Positions 10,265-21,228 of a DNA stretch of 23,337 nucleotides are shown piece by piece (positions within the stretch are counted from its first letter, which is position 1; every line of letters starts with the position of its first letter). The notes under the pieces were generated by a model, which saw nothing but the letters and a program-made list of their open reading frames with translations, was not told the origin of the DNA and ran no database searches. A program made the position numbers and the translations under genes. The DNA lies in assembly GCF_000611645.1 (NCBI RefSeq), contig NW_014013306.1, positions 1 to 23,337 of the forward strand. The letters run 5' to 3'. The DNA is from Monoraphidium neglectum. Lineage: Eukaryota; Chlorophyta; Chlorophyceae; Sphaeropleales; Selenastraceae.

Positions 10265-13200
10265 ATGGCGGCGGGGCCGGAGGCATGGAACACGTCTGAG
10301 CTACTCGCCGCGTGCTGCGGCGCGGCGGTGCAGGTGTGGGCCCCCCTCAGCGCCGACCCCCGCCGGGACGTCGCGATCGACGAGGCCGCGGGCGTGTCGG
10401 CGCTCGACTGGAGCGGCAACAACAAGGTGCTGGCGGTGGCGGGCGACAAGGCCCAGATCACGATGGTCGGGGGTGGCAAGGTCATAGGGTACGTCCCAGA
10501 GGTCCCAGAGGCCAGCTTGAGTGGCGTCACGGCAATGAGATTCTCCGCGGACTCCAAGCGACTCGCTATCGGATGCACAAACCGGGCGCTGCACATTCGC
10601 GACCTTCGGAGCCAGGTGGGGCGCGTGGGTGCGGAAGACGGGAGCATCACAACGGGGGCACGAGGGAGCGGCGGCGGNNNNNNNNNNNNNNNNNNNNNNN
10701 NNNNNNNNNNNNNNNNNNNNNNNNNNNNNNNNNNNNNNNNNNNNNNNNNNNNNNNNNNNNNNNNNNNNNNNNNNNNNNNNNNNNNNNNNNNNNNNNNNNN
10801 NNNNNNNNNNNNNNNNNNNNNNNNNNNNNNNNNNNNNNNNNNNNNNNNNNNNNNNNNNNNNNNNNNNNNNNNNNNNNNNNNNNNNNNNNNNNNNNNNNNN
10901 NNNNNNNNNNNNNNNNNNNNNNNNNNNNNNNNNNNNNNNNNNNNNNNNNNNNNNNNNNNNNNNNNNNNNNNNNNNNNNNCAACGGGGGCACGAGGGAGCG
11001 GCGGCGGCCGCGAAACGCGGCCCCGCCGTGCCGGGCCGCGCTTCGCGCGGTGGCCCATGGGCACAGCATGGGCGGAGGCATCTTCAGCAGATGCGCCCAC
11101 TCGGCAGCAGCCATGAGGAGCGGGAATGTTCAGGTTCGCACCAGCGCCAGCAGCTGCGGCAGCAGCAGCGCGACGCTGCCGCCGCAAACTCCCAACCCGC
11201 CCCTCGGCCGGCCGCCCCGGTGACCAGGGCGCTGGCAACAAGTGCATAATCGACCACAAGGCACCCGTGGCCGCGCTGGCCATCAGCCCCGACGACTCAT
11301 TGCTGGTGTCTTCCAGGTGCGAGCACGACTCACCCCGCCCCCTTTCGGCCGCCGAGCCGCTGGGCCCCAACACGCCTGCCTAGCGCTGGGCGAGCGTTTC
11401 GGCCGCAGAGTGTATGCAATGCCGCAGTCTGCCTGGCTTGGGCTGTGCGGTGTTCAAAGAAAAAGCAACTGTATGAGGGCGGTCAGCGTTTGCCAAGTAA
11501 TCCTTGCAAGAGGGAGTCCTTGCAAGAGGGAGTGTCGTGCTGGCACGCGCACACATACACACACACACACACACACGCACACACCCACACACACACACAC
11601 ACATCGCGCACATGTACGCACACACACTCGCTCACATCTGCTACACACACACGCGCACACACCCCTGTGCAGTGCTGGCGGCCAGGTAATGCTCCACGAC
11701 TTCAAAACAGGCGCCAAGCTCGCCTCCCTCGCCCACGACGGCGCCGCGCGGTCCGCCGCGCTGCAGTTCTGTGCTTCAGACGCCGACCGCCTGGCGACCG
11801 CCTCGGACGACGGCGGCGTCGCCGTCTGGAGCGTCGCGGCCCGCGCGGCGCGGCACGAGCTGCGTCGGCTGCACCGGGTGCGGCGCCGCGCGCTCCTTGA
11901 CCCAATGCCGCGCGGCGCGGCTTGCTGCCGTGCGGCGCGCAGCGTGACTTGGGACCAGGCATCTGCTGGAACAAGCTGCTTGCCTCCCTGAGCTTGCGCA
12001 ACCTTGGAGGCTCGAAACGGCGTCGGCAACCGCTGCAAAACACTTTATGAAATCTGCCATACCAGGGCCGTCCTGTGTGAGGACCTCACTTCACGTCTTT
12101 GACCCAAAACATCTGTTGCCAATCGCAGGGCGGCGCCACGGGCGTGCGTTTCGCGCCGGACAGCCCGCACGTCCTATACTCGTGTGGCAAAGATGGCCGG
12201 CTGCTGGTGCTGGACACGCGGCAGCCGACACAGCAGCAGCAGGTGCGGGGCGCGGCGGGGCGCTGAGCAGGCGGGCCCTGCGAGCGGGCTGCGCGCTGCT
12301 GCTGATTGCTACCTGCGACACCACTCACTGCCGCAACACCGACATGGCTCACGAGCCCGTGACTGAATGCGGTACGCGTGAGCGCTTCCAGCTTGAGCAG
12401 ATCACTACCTCTACCGTGTCCCCCCCCCACACACACACATACATGCATGCAACACACGCACGCAACATACATATAAACTCACGCACACACACGTGCCCGC
12501 GGACATCGTCATCTGCTCCCCACCGCAGGAGACCCTTGCCGCGCAGGCGTCTCAGCCCCTGACGTGCTTGGACGCGCGCTTCGATGCCCGCAGCCTGGCA
12601 GTGGGGACGTCTGGAGGCGCCGTCCTGGTGTTTGACCTGCGGCGCCCCGGCCAGGAGGTCGGCTCGCGGTCTTTTGGGGACGCGGCGGGGCCGGTAGCCT
12701 GTGTGCGGTGGCAGCACGCGCCGCACGCTGGGTCAAAGCACAAAGCGGCAGCGGCGGCCTCGGCGGGCGGGGCCGCAATCAGCGGCGCGCCGGGGCGGCT
12801 GACGGCGGCGGCGGCGCCTGCGGCCGCGGCCGCGGCCCTGAGCGCGCAGGGCGGCCGAGGGGACGCGATCTTGGCCGCGAGGGGCGCCCCGGCCGCAGCT
12901 GCTGGTGCCTTCGGGCCGCACGCACCAGCGGCTGCCGCGGCGGGGCGCTCGGTGACGCCGGAGCCGGCGCGCGGCGTGTCGCCGGAGCCCTCAGCCGTGT
13001 CCGGGTTCAGCCTGGTGGGCGGTTGGGCTCTCAGGGACTTGGGGCTGCCTCGGTTCGCAGCGGGGACTACAAAGGGCTTCAATGGCTTGGTGCCCGTTGC
13101 AGATTATGCAGCAGCTTGTGGCATGGATCCTGTTGATCGTGATCTGATCTTGATCGGCGCCGCGTTGACTTTCATCGCATCGTCATGACTCGCTGTCCCC

Positions 13201-14907: not shown

Positions 14908-15336
14908 GGCGGTGCCCGGGGGAGGGGAGTGGCGGCCGCGCGGCGGCTGCGGGCTGCGGCGCGGCGGCGGGCGGCGCGGGGCGCCTGGTGGCGGCGCGGG
15001 CTGGGCAGCGGCTCGGCCCGGCTTGAGCGTTTCATGCACCAATGTGCTGGCGCCTGCAGCCGTGGCGCTGAGCCGGCAGTGTCGGCCGCACCCGCAAACT
15101 TGCTGTTTGCAATAGTGCTATGTCGACCACTACGATAGCTGGAACATCTGAACGACAAACATGTGATGTTACAACTCGACATGAGGGATCAGACTTGGCA
15201 TCAGGCGCGCCGCTGCGGCCGCCATTGACCTGGTATCAGGTCAACACTGGTGCCCTGAGGGCGCCCCGCCGCCGCCAATCCAGCCAGCAGGACCTGAGTC
15301 CTACCAACATGGGGGATGGGGGGGTCCCCTCGCGCG
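14908..15336. other. convergent intergenic region, NEDD1 and FAD dehydrogenase 3' ends
   Basis: 429 bases separate the two stop codons. The first half is very GC-rich (the NEDD1 3' UTR). No gene is seen. A TGTAA for the minus-strand gene lies here; none was found for NEDD1. Confidence 0.65.
15169..15173 (-). promoter_or_regulatory. candidate polyadenylation element TGTAA for the FAD dehydrogenase
   Basis: TGTAA on the minus strand, 163 bases past the stop codon of the minus-strand gene, a plausible 3' UTR length for a green alga. Confidence 0.55.
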
Positions 15337-17095
15337 TCAAAACCCGAGCCTGAGGTGCACACCCGTGAGGGAGGCGACCACGGCCTCCCCCACACGCAGC
15401 CCGTCCACCGCCGCCGACACGATGCCGCCCGCGTAGCCGGCGCCCTCGCCGCAGGGGAACAGGCCCTCCAGGGAGACGCTGCATTCGGTTTGAATTGGCG
15501 CGGAAGGAACCGCCCAAGCAGGCTGGTCAGGGGCAAAGCACTTTGGCCGTTCGTCTTGGGGCCCACAAAGTTTGCATGGTGATCAATGGAGCTGCACACA
15601 CCTTTGGCACGGGTCCGGCCAACACCACACCAAGAAGCACCCCCGCCCCTGCAGCAAACCAAAGGATGACGGGTCGCACAGGCGAGCCCAACAGCGGGGC
15701 GGGCTGCCGAACGCGCGCCCACGCACTCAACATAGCGGCCGCGCTTGCGGTTTGCGCCCATGCGCACCTGCAGCAGTCGTCTGCCCGCCGCTCTATGCGG
15801 ACCGGCGCGCTCGTCCGCGTCTCGACGCCGTGCAGCAGCCCCTTGCCGCTCGCCACAAAGCCGGGCAGGTTCCGGTCAAACCTGGTCAAACGCGGTGCAG
15901 GGTGCGGGTAGTGCCAAAATGAGACAGCTGAGGAGCCGTCAGTGCCACAAGGGGCACACGACCCAGACAGTTGCAGGCGAAAAATGTTTGTCACGCGCTA
16001 GGTATGGACAATCTTCGGCAGTGGCGGGGAAAATGCATCCCTCGGAGCGAGCGGCAGGCCACCGGCTAAAGCGTGCCACCGCCCGGTCAAACCTGGTCAA
16101 GGCGGCGCGGATGGCGGCCGACATGGAGTCTGGGTAGAGGTCGTGCAGGGGGGCGCTGGCTATGCCCAGGCGGTACGAGCTCGAGGGCAGCGCGGCGGGG
16201 TCAGACGTGCGCCCTGGCGGGTAGGAGGCAATGGAAGTGACAGCGCACGAATTGCAGCATTGAGAGAGGGCATGCTTGCATGTTGTGTGGTGGCGGTCCG
16301 GAATGTGCGTGATGCTGTTTCCGGAAAGTGTCAGGGGGCCGTCTCACAGCGATGACTGGCCAGATCTTGCAGCAAAAAAGAAACTGTGAATTTCGCCGCG
16401 CCACATGGCTCCTGCTCAAGGCAGGACGGCCACCTGCCCCGCCGCCGACTAAGAATAGGACGCGCACGCGTCCATGCAAGGAAAAGCACGCCCACGCGGC
16501 AGCGTCCCGCCCCCGCACCTGCCATGAAGTCGTCCACCCGCTGAACGGGCGCGATCAGCGCGCCGCCGCCGCGCCGCGCGCCCTCCCGCTCCATCTCGCG
16601 CTGCGGGAAGCCGCGCGCCAAGAGAGCAACCGGTGTGCAAACGCGCCCAAAAACAAAGCCCGATTGAGCCTGATAAACAAGGCCTTCGAGCGCGACAGCC
16701 AACAATACGGTATGGAAGGTTGACACAGGTGTTTGCATTGTTTGAGTTTCACACCTGCAGCTCAACGCCGGCCAGCGGCCCGTGGGCGGCCTCCAGGTGC
16801 GCCCAGTCGCCATGCCGCACTGTCACCACCAGGGCCGAGTTGCACCAGGGGGAGGAGCGCTTGCTGGGACGCGAAGCGGGGGAGAACGTGTGGTGGAGAG
16901 GGGGAGTGCAATTGCGTTTGAGAAGGGAACAGGCTGGATGGGTGCAGGTTGGATTGCAAACCCAGGGAGGCTTGGCACGCACGGCTGGCTCAGGACAGGC
17001 GGCCATGCAGCTGCCGCACGCATGCATGCAGTGACACGTGTGCACATACACACAAAACACACACATTTGAAAACACAAAGTGCCGCGCGCGCACA

Positions 17096-17138
<43 letters not shown>

Positions 17139-20100
17139 CACTCACACGCACGCACACACACGCGCGCACGCGCAGACTCCTCCCCGCACCTGAAGCTCAT
17201 GCCGTTGATGCACAGCTCGTCCTCGCTCGTGCTGGTGGGCACGATCTGGCCGCCAGGGCACATGCAGAACGAGTACACCCCCCTGCTGCCCTCCCCGTCA
17301 CCCTCATCGCCGCCGCCAACAACCACCCCTTCCGCCCTTCCGACTTCCACAGCCTGTCCCTCACGCTGCTGTTGCTGCTGCTGCTGCTGCTGCTCGTGCT
17401 TCCCCCTCCCGCTGCTGGTCGCCCCATCACTGCCGCCGCCGCTGCTGCTGTTGCTGCTGCGGCTGCTGCTGCTGCTGCTGCTGCTGCCACCGTGGCTTGC
17501 GTGGGGTGCAGGTGCTGACAGGCTGTCCAGGATGTTGGTAGCCAGTGTGTAGTCAGCCACGGGCAGCTTCCCCTTGCCACGCATGACCTGTCAGAGGAAC
17601 GAAAAGGGGGTCGTAACAGGATCAGCGCGCTCTCAACTCCCTGTGTGGACTTGCATGGCTGGCTCAACCCTGAATGCATTGTTATGCAGCGCGCCCATCA
17701 GGGCAAAAAGAGCAGCCATGATGTGCGGGCCTGTCGCTCTGAACCAGCCTGCAACGCCTGGCTGGCGCTGCGCCGTGCACTTGCAAACCTGTCAAGTTCA
17801 CACGCCCTGGTGCATGCAGCAGGACATGATGGCACAAACTTCACTCCGTCCCCTCTTCATCAGTGGGTCGCAGCCGGGCTGCGTGCGGCCCAAAACCGCC
17901 CCACCCCCCCTCGGAAAGACAAACAAACCCAAGCCGCGCTCACCCCCCTGGCGTCCTCTTCGCCGTATTGGGCCGCGTCCAGCCACGCCTGCGGGTGCTC
18001 TATCCTGAACCCCAGCGCAAACGGCTTTGCGCTCATGGCCACGCCGCGGGCCGCCAGCGTCTGGTACAGCGGACGCGCGGAGTGGCCCGGCGCCAGCACG
18101 ACAGCGCTGGCGCGCAGCGCCTCGCCCCCTGCAGACGTTGCCGCATGTTCGCGCGTGCAGGTCAAGGGGTCAGGGCAGAATTCAGCAGACGAGGTGCTGC
18201 CCGTCGTGCCGAGGCCAGCAGCTGCCCTTGCCGCGTAGGCCATGAGTGCAAGAGTATCTTACGGCACTCTTGAAGACCAGGTCAGCCACTGACTGATCCC
18301 CTTGGCTCCCTTGACAAATTGCAAAAACTGTGTTGCGCACTGCAGCAAACAAACACTTGTGCCGCATGAGGCAGCAGCACATCCAATCAACCAGTATCCC
18401 CTAACCGCCGTCTCACCTTCCAAGATCACGCCCGTTGTGCTGCCGCCCTCCACTATAAGATCTTTCACGGAGCAGCCAAACCTAACCTCAACGCCCAGCG
18501 CCTGCGTGAGGTGACGCCACCATGGTGTGGCGGCACGTGTGATGACGTCATCAATCACGCAGCACTCGGTCAGGGGATGGAGCGGCTGCTTGCGCCTTCG
18601 TACGCCGAGCCTCTCTTTCGTGACCTTTCAGGGCTTGACAGCCTGAGTGGCTGTCTCCACCCCACTGCGCCATTGACCTAAAGGTTTGCGACGGCAAGGC
18701 CGTTGTGATGCCCACCAGCCAGGGTTCGAATGGTTGCTCCGCCGGCATCGTGAAGTTCTCACCTGCAGGTGGGCCCTGAAGTTCTTGAGGATCCTCACGA
18801 GGTTCTCTGTGCCCATGTGGGGCTTGCCGCTGACGAGGACGGCCTTGGCGGTTGGGAGCGGTCGGGGGAGGTCATGATCGGTTGGGAGCAGTTAGGCAGT
18901 TTGAGCATGTAGCAGGTTGAGCGTGGCGGCGTCAAGGCAGGAGGCGAGAGGGCCTGCAACAAGTGCGAGTCTGCTAGCAACCAGGGGAGGGGGCGGCAGT
19001 GCTGGGCCCATCCATCAAAAGTGGCAGCCAATGCTCGGTGTGCGAAATTGACAACATGGCCCAACGGCGATGTCGGCAGGTGCATCCCGCGGGGGCCAAG
19101 CTGCAGGGATCCATCCCCCGGCGGGCCGGCGGTGGGCTCACATCGGGCGCCCCGAGGGCGTGGAGGGTCGTCAGCACGCGCCTCACGGGGTCGCTGTTGC
19201 GCCCGATGCGGGTGGTGAGCTTCCCGTCACTCCAGGTGCCCGCGCCGCCCTCGCCTGAAGCGGGGGAAGGGAGGGAGGAGAGGAACGGGCGCTGTCAGTG
19301 GGGGAAGGGGGCGGCTTAGGGAGAGGGCACGATTTGAGGATCGCAGCCGGCGCCTGGCGAGCAAGCGCGTGGTGATGTCGAGTCAGGGCCGCAACCTGGC
19401 ACACACACCCCTGGTGACGCCCTGGCATGTGACCTTATGCGTCCCAAAACCACCGCCTGCACTCCCCTCACCCACCCACCATAGCATAGGTTGCTCTCGG
19501 GGTTGAGCCGTCGCCGCACAAACAGCGCCCCTATGTCGCGGCCCCGCTGCTCCACCGCCTGCCCCTTCTCCAGCAGGACGACCCTCAGCCCCGCCTCTGC
19601 CGCAGCCAGCGCCGCAAACAGCCCGCCTGGGCCGGCGCCCACCACGACCACCGGCTCGCGCGCCGCGCCGCCCGCGGCGCCGCCGACGGGGGCGAGGAAC
19701 GCCGCGTCGGGCGTGATTAGGTGGGCTGGGGCCGTGGCGCCGCCGCTGCTGCGTGAGGCGTCGTTGGCAGCCGCGAGCACATCCAATTCTCCTGGCGCCA
19801 GCCTGCGGCGGCGCAATCGTTGGCTGGTTGGTTGGATCACATACACACACATATATCACAGAATAAAAATATGCCATATACATGCTGAAACATGCAAACA
19901 TAAGGGGTATTTGGGAGGGTGTATTGCCCTTTCGGGCCAACCATTCCACCAAAAAGTCAGGAGGGCAGCCACAGTTGCTGCGCAACAGGAGGGGCGAGCC
20001 GTAGGCCAAAGGTGAATGGCAGCCCGCCCGCCGGAGCCGCGACCCCACGCACGCCCGGGCTCGCGCGCAGCGCTCACCACTCCACAAGCCCCTGCCGCGG

Positions 20101-21228
20101 CTCGAGGCCCGCCGCGCCGGCCGCAGCCGCGGCGGCTGCATCGACATCAACGACGTAGGCCCACATCTTGGGCTTGTACCTCCGCGCGTCAAACGCCTTG
20201 CGCACCTGTGAGGGATTTTTACGATCGCCAGTTGAGGCGCGTGCACGGTGGCGGGGAAAAGTGGGGGGAGGGACGCAGGGCGCGGCCGCAGAGGCTGGGG
20301 ATTGGGGTGCACGTTGCGACACTCTCCGGCCGGTCGGCAACCGCAGGGTGCCGCGTTCCCTCATGCATGTCGTGGCCAGAAACACCGGCAAAATGCAGCG
20401 GAGGCGCCAGCCATTCATACACACCCAGAAGCGCCCCACCACCCACCCAGCCACCCACCATTGTTACTGCGCCCGCGCGCAGCTGCCTGGTGCAGCCCAG
20501 GCGCTCCTGGGCGGCCGCCCGCAGCTGCTCGTGCACCGACAGGTCGTCCTGCGGCGTTGGGGGGCGTCATCGCACCCTGGGGACGACGACGCGTGGCGAC
20601 ACGAGCGACCAAGGCGTGCGCCACTGCAGAAACGCGCCGCGGCCACGGCGATTTCGCTGCAGCTGGTGCAGAGTCGGCGCAGACTCTGTTGCACTGCCTG
20701 CCTTGCTGACGCCTGCCGTAGGGCCGCCGTCAGGCCCCCTTGCCATGGGTTCGTGTCACCAGCCCCCCATACCTTCCCGGGGTCATCCTCAGCGAAAATC
20801 TTGAGATTGAACAGCCGCCAGCTGCCAGTAGGTTTGCCTGCTGGCGGCCGCGGCAAGTTCGCGTCTGCGGCGCCGTGCTGCTGCTGCTGCTGCTGCTGCT
20901 GCCGCTGCTTCTGTGCACCACCGCCCCGCCCGCCGCCACGCCCGGCGCCGCGCCCGCTGCTGCGCCCTCGGCCGCGCCCTCGGCCGCCCCCACTGCGCCC
21001 AGAGGTTGACGCTCTGCGGTCCTCGCGGCCGCTGCGGTCTGCTGTGCTGCCACCATTGCCCTCGCCCTGCCTGGATGTGCGGTTGCTCGCAGCGGCCGCG
21101 CTGGCGGCGACATCCCTCAGAGTGCGGCGGCCGCCGTCGAGGCTGGGGACGACCGGCAGCGATGCTGCATGGCAGTGAAACGGTGGTCTTGTATGTCGGC
21201 CTGGCAATCTTTGAAGTCGAGCTAGCAT
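15337..21228 (-). CDS. COG2509-type FAD-dependent dehydrogenase, probably organellar
   Basis: Model (+ coordinates, complement): 20773..21228, 20468..20548, 20078..20205, 19480..19802, 19142..19254, 18763..18843, 18417..18501, 17944..18128, 17190..17587, 16755..16863, 16519..16600, 16093..16213, 15768..15881, 15337..15478; 14 exons, 805 aa, all phases fit. ATG 21228 is the first in frame. Residues 1-135 are Arg/Gly-rich with an RGG-like stretch (79-104) and Gln8 (110-117), perhaps partly a transit peptide. VRKAFDARRYK (180-190) is the family's N-terminal signature. VVVVGAGPGGLFAAL (from 273) is the FAD-binding Rossmann motif. SNLCYGEGGAGTWSDGKLTT, KPHMGTENLVRILKNFRAHL, ALGFRIEHPQ, GVYSFCMCPGGQIVPTSTSE, NSALVVTV, and PCGEGAGYAGGIVSAAVDGL near the C-terminus complete the family pattern. 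A roughly 80-residue Ser/Gln/Gly-rich insertion (about 505-585) interrupts it. Family members are uncharacterised oxidoreductases; a plant homologue is, as I recall, linked to pigment defects. The substrate is unknown. Confidence 0.93.
15872..16100 (-). repeat. 18-bp direct repeats bounding intron 12 of the FAD dehydrogenase
   Basis: The coding-strand sequence TTGACCAGGTTTGACCGG occurs at 16083-16100 and, identically, at 15872-15889. The donor cut falls inside the first copy (ACCAG|GTTTGA, intron from 16092) and the acceptor cut at the same point of the second (ACCAG|GTTTGA, exon from 15881). The intron is therefore 15882-16092, 211 bp. The match extends 8 bases into exon 12 and 10 bases into exon 13, then stops. 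The protein across the joint reads AALTRFDRNLPGF, as expected for the family. Confidence 0.92.
17092..17170 (-). repeat. (TG)n tract next to the donor of FAD dehydrogenase intron 9
   Basis: CA dinucleotides on the + strand, so TG on the sense strand of the minus-strand gene. It begins about 20 bases after the donor at 17189-17188, with a CG-alternating start. Confidence 0.85.
17364..17490 (-). repeat. (CAG)n repeats coding for Gln and Ser in the FAD dehydrogenase
   Basis: CTG runs on the + strand read on the minus strand as AGC (a Ser run) and then as CAG (nine Gln) within exon 9. They lie in the low-complexity insertion between ADYTLATNI and GVYSFCMCPGG. Confidence 0.85.
20875..20902 (-). 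repeat. (CAG)n repeat coding for eight Gln in exon 1 of the FAD dehydrogenase
   Basis: CTG units on the + strand give CAG codons for Gln110-117 in the N-terminal low-complexity region, directly after the Arg/Gly-rich stretch. Confidence 0.85.

Follow-up and report, generated by a model that had tools for sequence, protein, structure and literature searches.

Intron 12 of a gene for an FAD-dependent dehydrogenase in the green alga Monoraphidium neglectum is very probably a recent gain, accompanied by duplication of a segment of the exon. We consider it probable that it is a spliceosomal intron that arose when a 193-bp insert entered the exon and 18 bp of the exon were duplicated, with fill-in of a staggered break plus filler DNA as the most likely course of events; the staggered-break mechanism, taken by itself, has about an even chance of being right. 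The window, i.e. the whole stretch of DNA analysed, comprises 23,337 nt of contig NW_014013306.1, and the gene lies on its minus strand with a coding span at 15337..21228. The 14-exon model gives a protein of 808 aa, and the frame is open after joining of the exons. The protein matches the PF21688 C-terminal domain with an E value of 1.2e-61, and its best homolog is a Chlamydomonas incerta protein with 62% identity across residues 270–808. The boundaries of exon 1 are the least certain part of the model. A run of 302 N at 10678–10979 of the window is an assembly gap or a withheld stretch, distant from intron 12.

Exon 12 (16093..16213, minus strand) ends in GCCGCCTTGACCAG and exon 13 (15768..15881, minus strand) starts with GTTTGACCGGAACCTG, both placed by the gene model and by homology. 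Between them lies intron 12 (15882..16092, minus strand), 211 nt long and in phase 2, which has the GT...AG ends of a spliceosomal intron and whose removal restores the conserved frame. The predicted splicing would join CTTGACCAG to GTTTGACCGGAAC, so that exons 12 and 13 together read AALTRFDRNLPGF, and removing one copy of the repeat described below restores A-L-x-R-F-[D/E] in the protein. The best 120 of 7,998 homologs match the spliced protein across this junction: the F at the junction is kept in 118 of them and the L in 100, and one has extra residues at this point. The gene finder ends exon 12 at 16063 and favours another donor, CCG/GTGGCC, located 30 nt further in (window 16062–16092), which keeps the frame and adds ten residues. 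This choice counts against the splice model used here, but the donor of the 14-exon model is favoured because the ten additional residues fall where the homologs have none; CCG/GTGGCC might represent a possible alternative splicing of intron 12. The donor CAG/GTTTGA is the only one of the 13 in the gene with a T at position +3, the others having G in 11 cases and A in one, and such a T is expected if the donor was taken over from exon sequence. In 6 of the 13 introns of the gene a CTGAC, CTAAC or TTGAC precedes the intron end by 37–72 nt. Intron 12 is one of them, with the CTGAC at 15938..15942 (minus strand), 61 nt from its end, as a candidate branch site supplied by the insert.

The sequence TTGACCAGGTTTGACCGG is found at both ends of intron 12, identical in 18 of 18 bases, with the 5' copy at 16083–16100 across the donor AG/GT and the 3' copy at 15872–15889 across the acceptor AG/GT, both on the minus strand. 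The AG/GT has the same position in both copies, and the repeat reaches 8 bases to the left of the splice point, into exon 12, and 10 bases to the right, as measured into exon 13. The repeat and these limits had been described in a sequence-only reading, which also held a chance origin to be very unlikely and saw nothing comparable at the other introns of the gene, and on each of these points the counts agree with it. A sequence search of the window, allowing up to 3 mismatches, finds the 18-mer nowhere besides the two copies, and 100 shuffles gave no match. The remaining 12 introns of the gene have a junction match of 1–5 bases. Among 186 introns predicted in 151 kb of DNA no junction repeat exceeds 7 bp; this is a non-random sample in which the first 38 loci were picked for holding the 18-mer and 29 introns come from the window; the 18-bp repeat is compared with these introns and not counted among them, the gene finder placing the donor of intron 12 elsewhere. 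Pairing donors with acceptors of other introns 20,000 times gave junction repeats of 10 bp at most. With the columns taken as independent, the probability of 18/18 is about 10^-9.2 per intron, a figure computed on a set of 284 introns that includes overlapping loci. Chance alone is without power to explain the junction repeat of intron 12. In the same 151 kb, with simple repeats removed, there are three direct repeats longer than 18 bp, of which one has AGGT. This is a 36-bp repeat in locus L018, at 142–282, with the copies 105 bp apart, seemingly the duplicated end of an exon and start of an intron; it looks like a tandem duplication and was rejected as a similar intron. Also rejected was a 12-bp repeat in L052 that holds AAGGT, as it sits in apparent coding sequence.

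The age of the intron can be judged from relatives and from the repeat itself. P0121 is a metagenomic ORF, 74% identical to the protein and located on a 12.3-kb contig, which is contiguous through the intron 12 junction (AALTEFDRRLPGF) and departs from the protein exactly at the end of exon 13. Its tail, EDCCRCGAQ, resembles the read-through of intron 13 here, DDCCRCAWAQ. Because the ORF is contiguous at the junction and carries this tail, we infer that it is unspliced and contains intron 13 and not intron 12. P0121, known as a translated ORF only, thus appears to lack intron 12 and to share intron 13. The sequence-only reading had proposed that related algae be compared for absence of the intron, and P0121 provides this at the ORF level, as it does the absence from a close relative that belongs to the staggered-break model; the intron may instead have been lost in the line of P0121. 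In P0143 and P0144 the departure from the protein comes a few residues later, after PGFV, with no break at the intron 12 junction. When exons 12 and 13 were used as query, 32 short homologous proteins were retrieved, some of which may be spliced predictions, and 30 of them cover residues 37–45, the stretch that contains the junction codon; three of these have a gap of one residue close by. P0148 starts at residue 38 and still covers the junction codon, P0149 starts downstream, and none of the 32 starts, stops or breaks exactly at the exon 12–13 junction. Given the 18/18 identity of the two copies, a simple model of neutral change (14 free sites) limits the divergence since the event to about 15% at the 10% level and 19% at the 5% level. 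No second copy of the gene without intron 12 was found, the 12 matches all being in the window's own contig.

According to the explanation that we favour, an uninterrupted exon would have been broken at TTGACCAG/GTTTGACCGG by a staggered double-strand break, and fill-in of the break would have left 18 bp of exon on both sides, with about 193 bp of filler DNA joined in between. The 5' copy of the repeat would then give the donor CAG/GTTTGA and the 3' copy the acceptor ACCAG/G, and since both copies would be cut at the same base, the old reading frame would return and the protein be unchanged. The insert would also have provided the candidate branch site CTGAC. The presumed filler corresponds to the body of the intron (15890..16082, minus strand), and no source for it was found, the body matching nowhere else in the searched assembly. 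The length of the repeat, which exceeds the 4–12 bp known from Daphnia (see below), and its likeness to a dispersed array both count against this explanation.

The next candidate after staggered-break repair, which we regard as unlikely, is that a transposable element or a single-copy introner inserted and duplicated 18 bp of its target site. It would account for the duplication at both ends, and introners are known to recruit splice sites from the duplicated target (PMC9860276). Terminal inverted repeats occur in some introner families only. The ends of the body carry an inverted match, GCGGTG/CACCGC, of 6 bp and within 2 bases of the ends; an equally good match is seen in 1.4% of 5,000 mismatched intron ends, a control from the same set of 284 introns with its overlapping loci, and this match decides nothing. 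Against an element stands the search for further copies. Dispersed copies of the body had been put forward in the sequence-only reading as something to look for, and the body matches only itself in the 34.6-Mb assembly (1,632 contigs), at E 0.001 as well as at E 10; the search skips very common words and the assembly contains N stretches, so this absence applies to the bases searched and is not assembly-wide. In the 10,000 bases of L049 (G000:C40:1-10000) 7,190 are N, and L050 (G000:C360:1-10000) consists of N in all its 10,000 bases. A nuclear donor or a sister copy of such age should be visible in the assembly. Furthermore, the duplications of introners as given in PMC9860276 are 3–9 bp, as against 18 bp in intron 12, no inverted repeat of at least 8 was found in a repeat search, and the body has no Rfam match at E ≤1. 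It has no stable fold (z 0.10), and no exact 24-mer of it is found in GTDB or IMG/VR contigs (0 in each).

The 18-mer had been treated as unique exon sequence, and this does not hold, as it belongs to a class of TTGACC arrays spread over the genome. It is found at 42 places in the 34.6-Mb assembly at up to 2 mismatches, the copies in the window included, as compared to 0 places for each of two controls, the reversed 18-mer and a permuted one that keeps the internal period. Among these 42 places, the pair in the window is the only one with its copies an intron's length apart. One further exact copy is located at G000:C771:10497-10514. Pairs of TTGACC within 30 bp number 821 (reversed control, 53), and 124 places have a pair at a distance of exactly 10 bp (reversed control, 0). 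The arrays, in 38 loci, have two to a few units with varied spacers and unlike flanks; examples besides C771 are L012, L022, L037 and L046. We take them to resemble W-box cores, and among the titles listed by a literature search no report of TTGACC arrays in an algal genome was found. Only 4 of 60 array sites are wholly inside a predicted exon, versus 26% of random positions, and the exon at the intron 12 junction thus mimics a common, largely non-coding array. Since the 18-mer is a member of this class, the two copies can be explained in other ways than by simple duplication of a target site. Either the likeness of the exon to an array is coincidental, or the array contributed to the event, serving as a break or pairing site.

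The latter might have taken the form of template-switch repair, in which the broken exon end would have paired with a distant array, about 190 bp been copied and the ends rejoined. We find this course of events quite unlikely. It draws on the 42 places and the empty controls, on the oddity of an array in a conserved exon, and on a weak third repeat unit (72%) that is shifted 10 bp into the intron at 15882–15899 and overlaps the 3' copy on its intron side, as in the arrays. However, there is no locus among the matches with the body beside an array. In 40 array hits (38 loci) the flanks share on average 4–5 of 15 bases with the intron or exon flanks. The best match is 9 of 15 and includes that of the exact C771 copy to the start of exon 13, which is taken for chance. 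In addition, codons for L-T-x-F-D can spell the array by chance, and P0121 also has L-T-x-F-D. A more general proposal, that dispersed TTGACC arrays act as exchange points in break repair, and that an exon spelling the array captures DNA between two copies and becomes exon-intron-exon, is a long shot. If true, new introns would arise by preference in exons that resemble a repeated motif of non-coding DNA.

It is most improbable that the intron is old and that its ends were made alike later, whether through selection for the array or through gene conversion between the splice sites. Of the 18 bases, 12 are accounted for by the array and another 4 by the splice sites, and in the first 60 nt of predicted introns TTGACC has roughly double the density (16 hits, 1.33 per kb) of that in other sequence outside exons (0.66 per kb), a count that leaves out the chosen array sites. 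On the other hand, the intron is missing from P0121, where intron 13 seems to be present, and a link between arrays and splice sites was not replicated in a second set of 22 sites from 30 new loci, from which 7 loci already seen and one tandem neighbour had been dropped beforehand. Arrays are near a junction in 16 of 38 sites in the first set and 7 of 22 in the second (random 23%), and their orientation is 12 v 4 in the first set and 3 v 4 in the second. All array tests use a gene finder trained on the FAD gene alone, with a neutral donor score that admits wrong junctions. Under these settings a coding/non-coding boundary is present at 22 of 38 array sites, versus 38% at random, and an array lies within 50 bp of a splice site in 14 of 38 cases (11.4 expected), which is near random, and within 5 bp in 4 of 38 (1.5 expected, p 0.07). 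The arrays were accordingly rejected as an intron-end or inverted-terminal signal, the hints of the first set having failed in the 22 new sites and the distances being near random. They were rejected also as a branch-point or acceptor element: there is no strand-specific excess of acceptors downstream, the sense strand being better in 18 of 38.

An origin by tandem duplication of exon sequence holding AGGT is not supported, since local alignment of the body to the flanking exons is no better than in 300 shuffles. The view that the rest of the intron is unlike either exon is thereby upheld, and so is the preference in the sequence-only reading for insertion over tandem duplication, as far as a gain with duplication of the AG/GT exon segment is concerned; its suggestion of an introner-like element is not supported, the body being single-copy in the searched assembly and the duplication 18 bp long, and neither, on the same two points, is a family of introners. 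Introns from tandem duplication (PMC3443670) share with intron 12 the use of two AGGT copies as donor and acceptor; such an intron should resemble the adjoining exons over its full length, whereas intron 12 does not. According to PMC9860276, introners form families of 5 to more than 2,000 copies, some families with target duplications of 3–9 bp; the duplicated target can provide donor and acceptor alike with the mRNA unchanged, as in intron 12, but intron 12 differs in its single-copy body and 18-bp duplication.

That intron 12 is a recent gain, of a type already known and with a duplication of unusual length, is well supported. The nearest published pattern is that of the neo-introns of Daphnia pulex formed at staggered double-strand breaks, which according to PMC4202315 have exon-intron repeats of 4–12 bp and inserts whose source is in most cases unknown, whereas the 18-bp repeat of intron 12 is longer and comes from a dispersed array class. 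The origin of a single intron is rarely caught with the footprint intact. With the duplicated exon segment, both recruited splice sites and a relative seemingly without the intron, the staggered-break model becomes testable in one gene, and the membership of the repeat in the array class provides a specific idea on why the insertion site was chosen. An inverted pair of the TTGACC core, TTGACCTGGTATCAGGTCAA, is located at 15225–15244 of the window, about 90 bp beyond the stop of the FAD gene.
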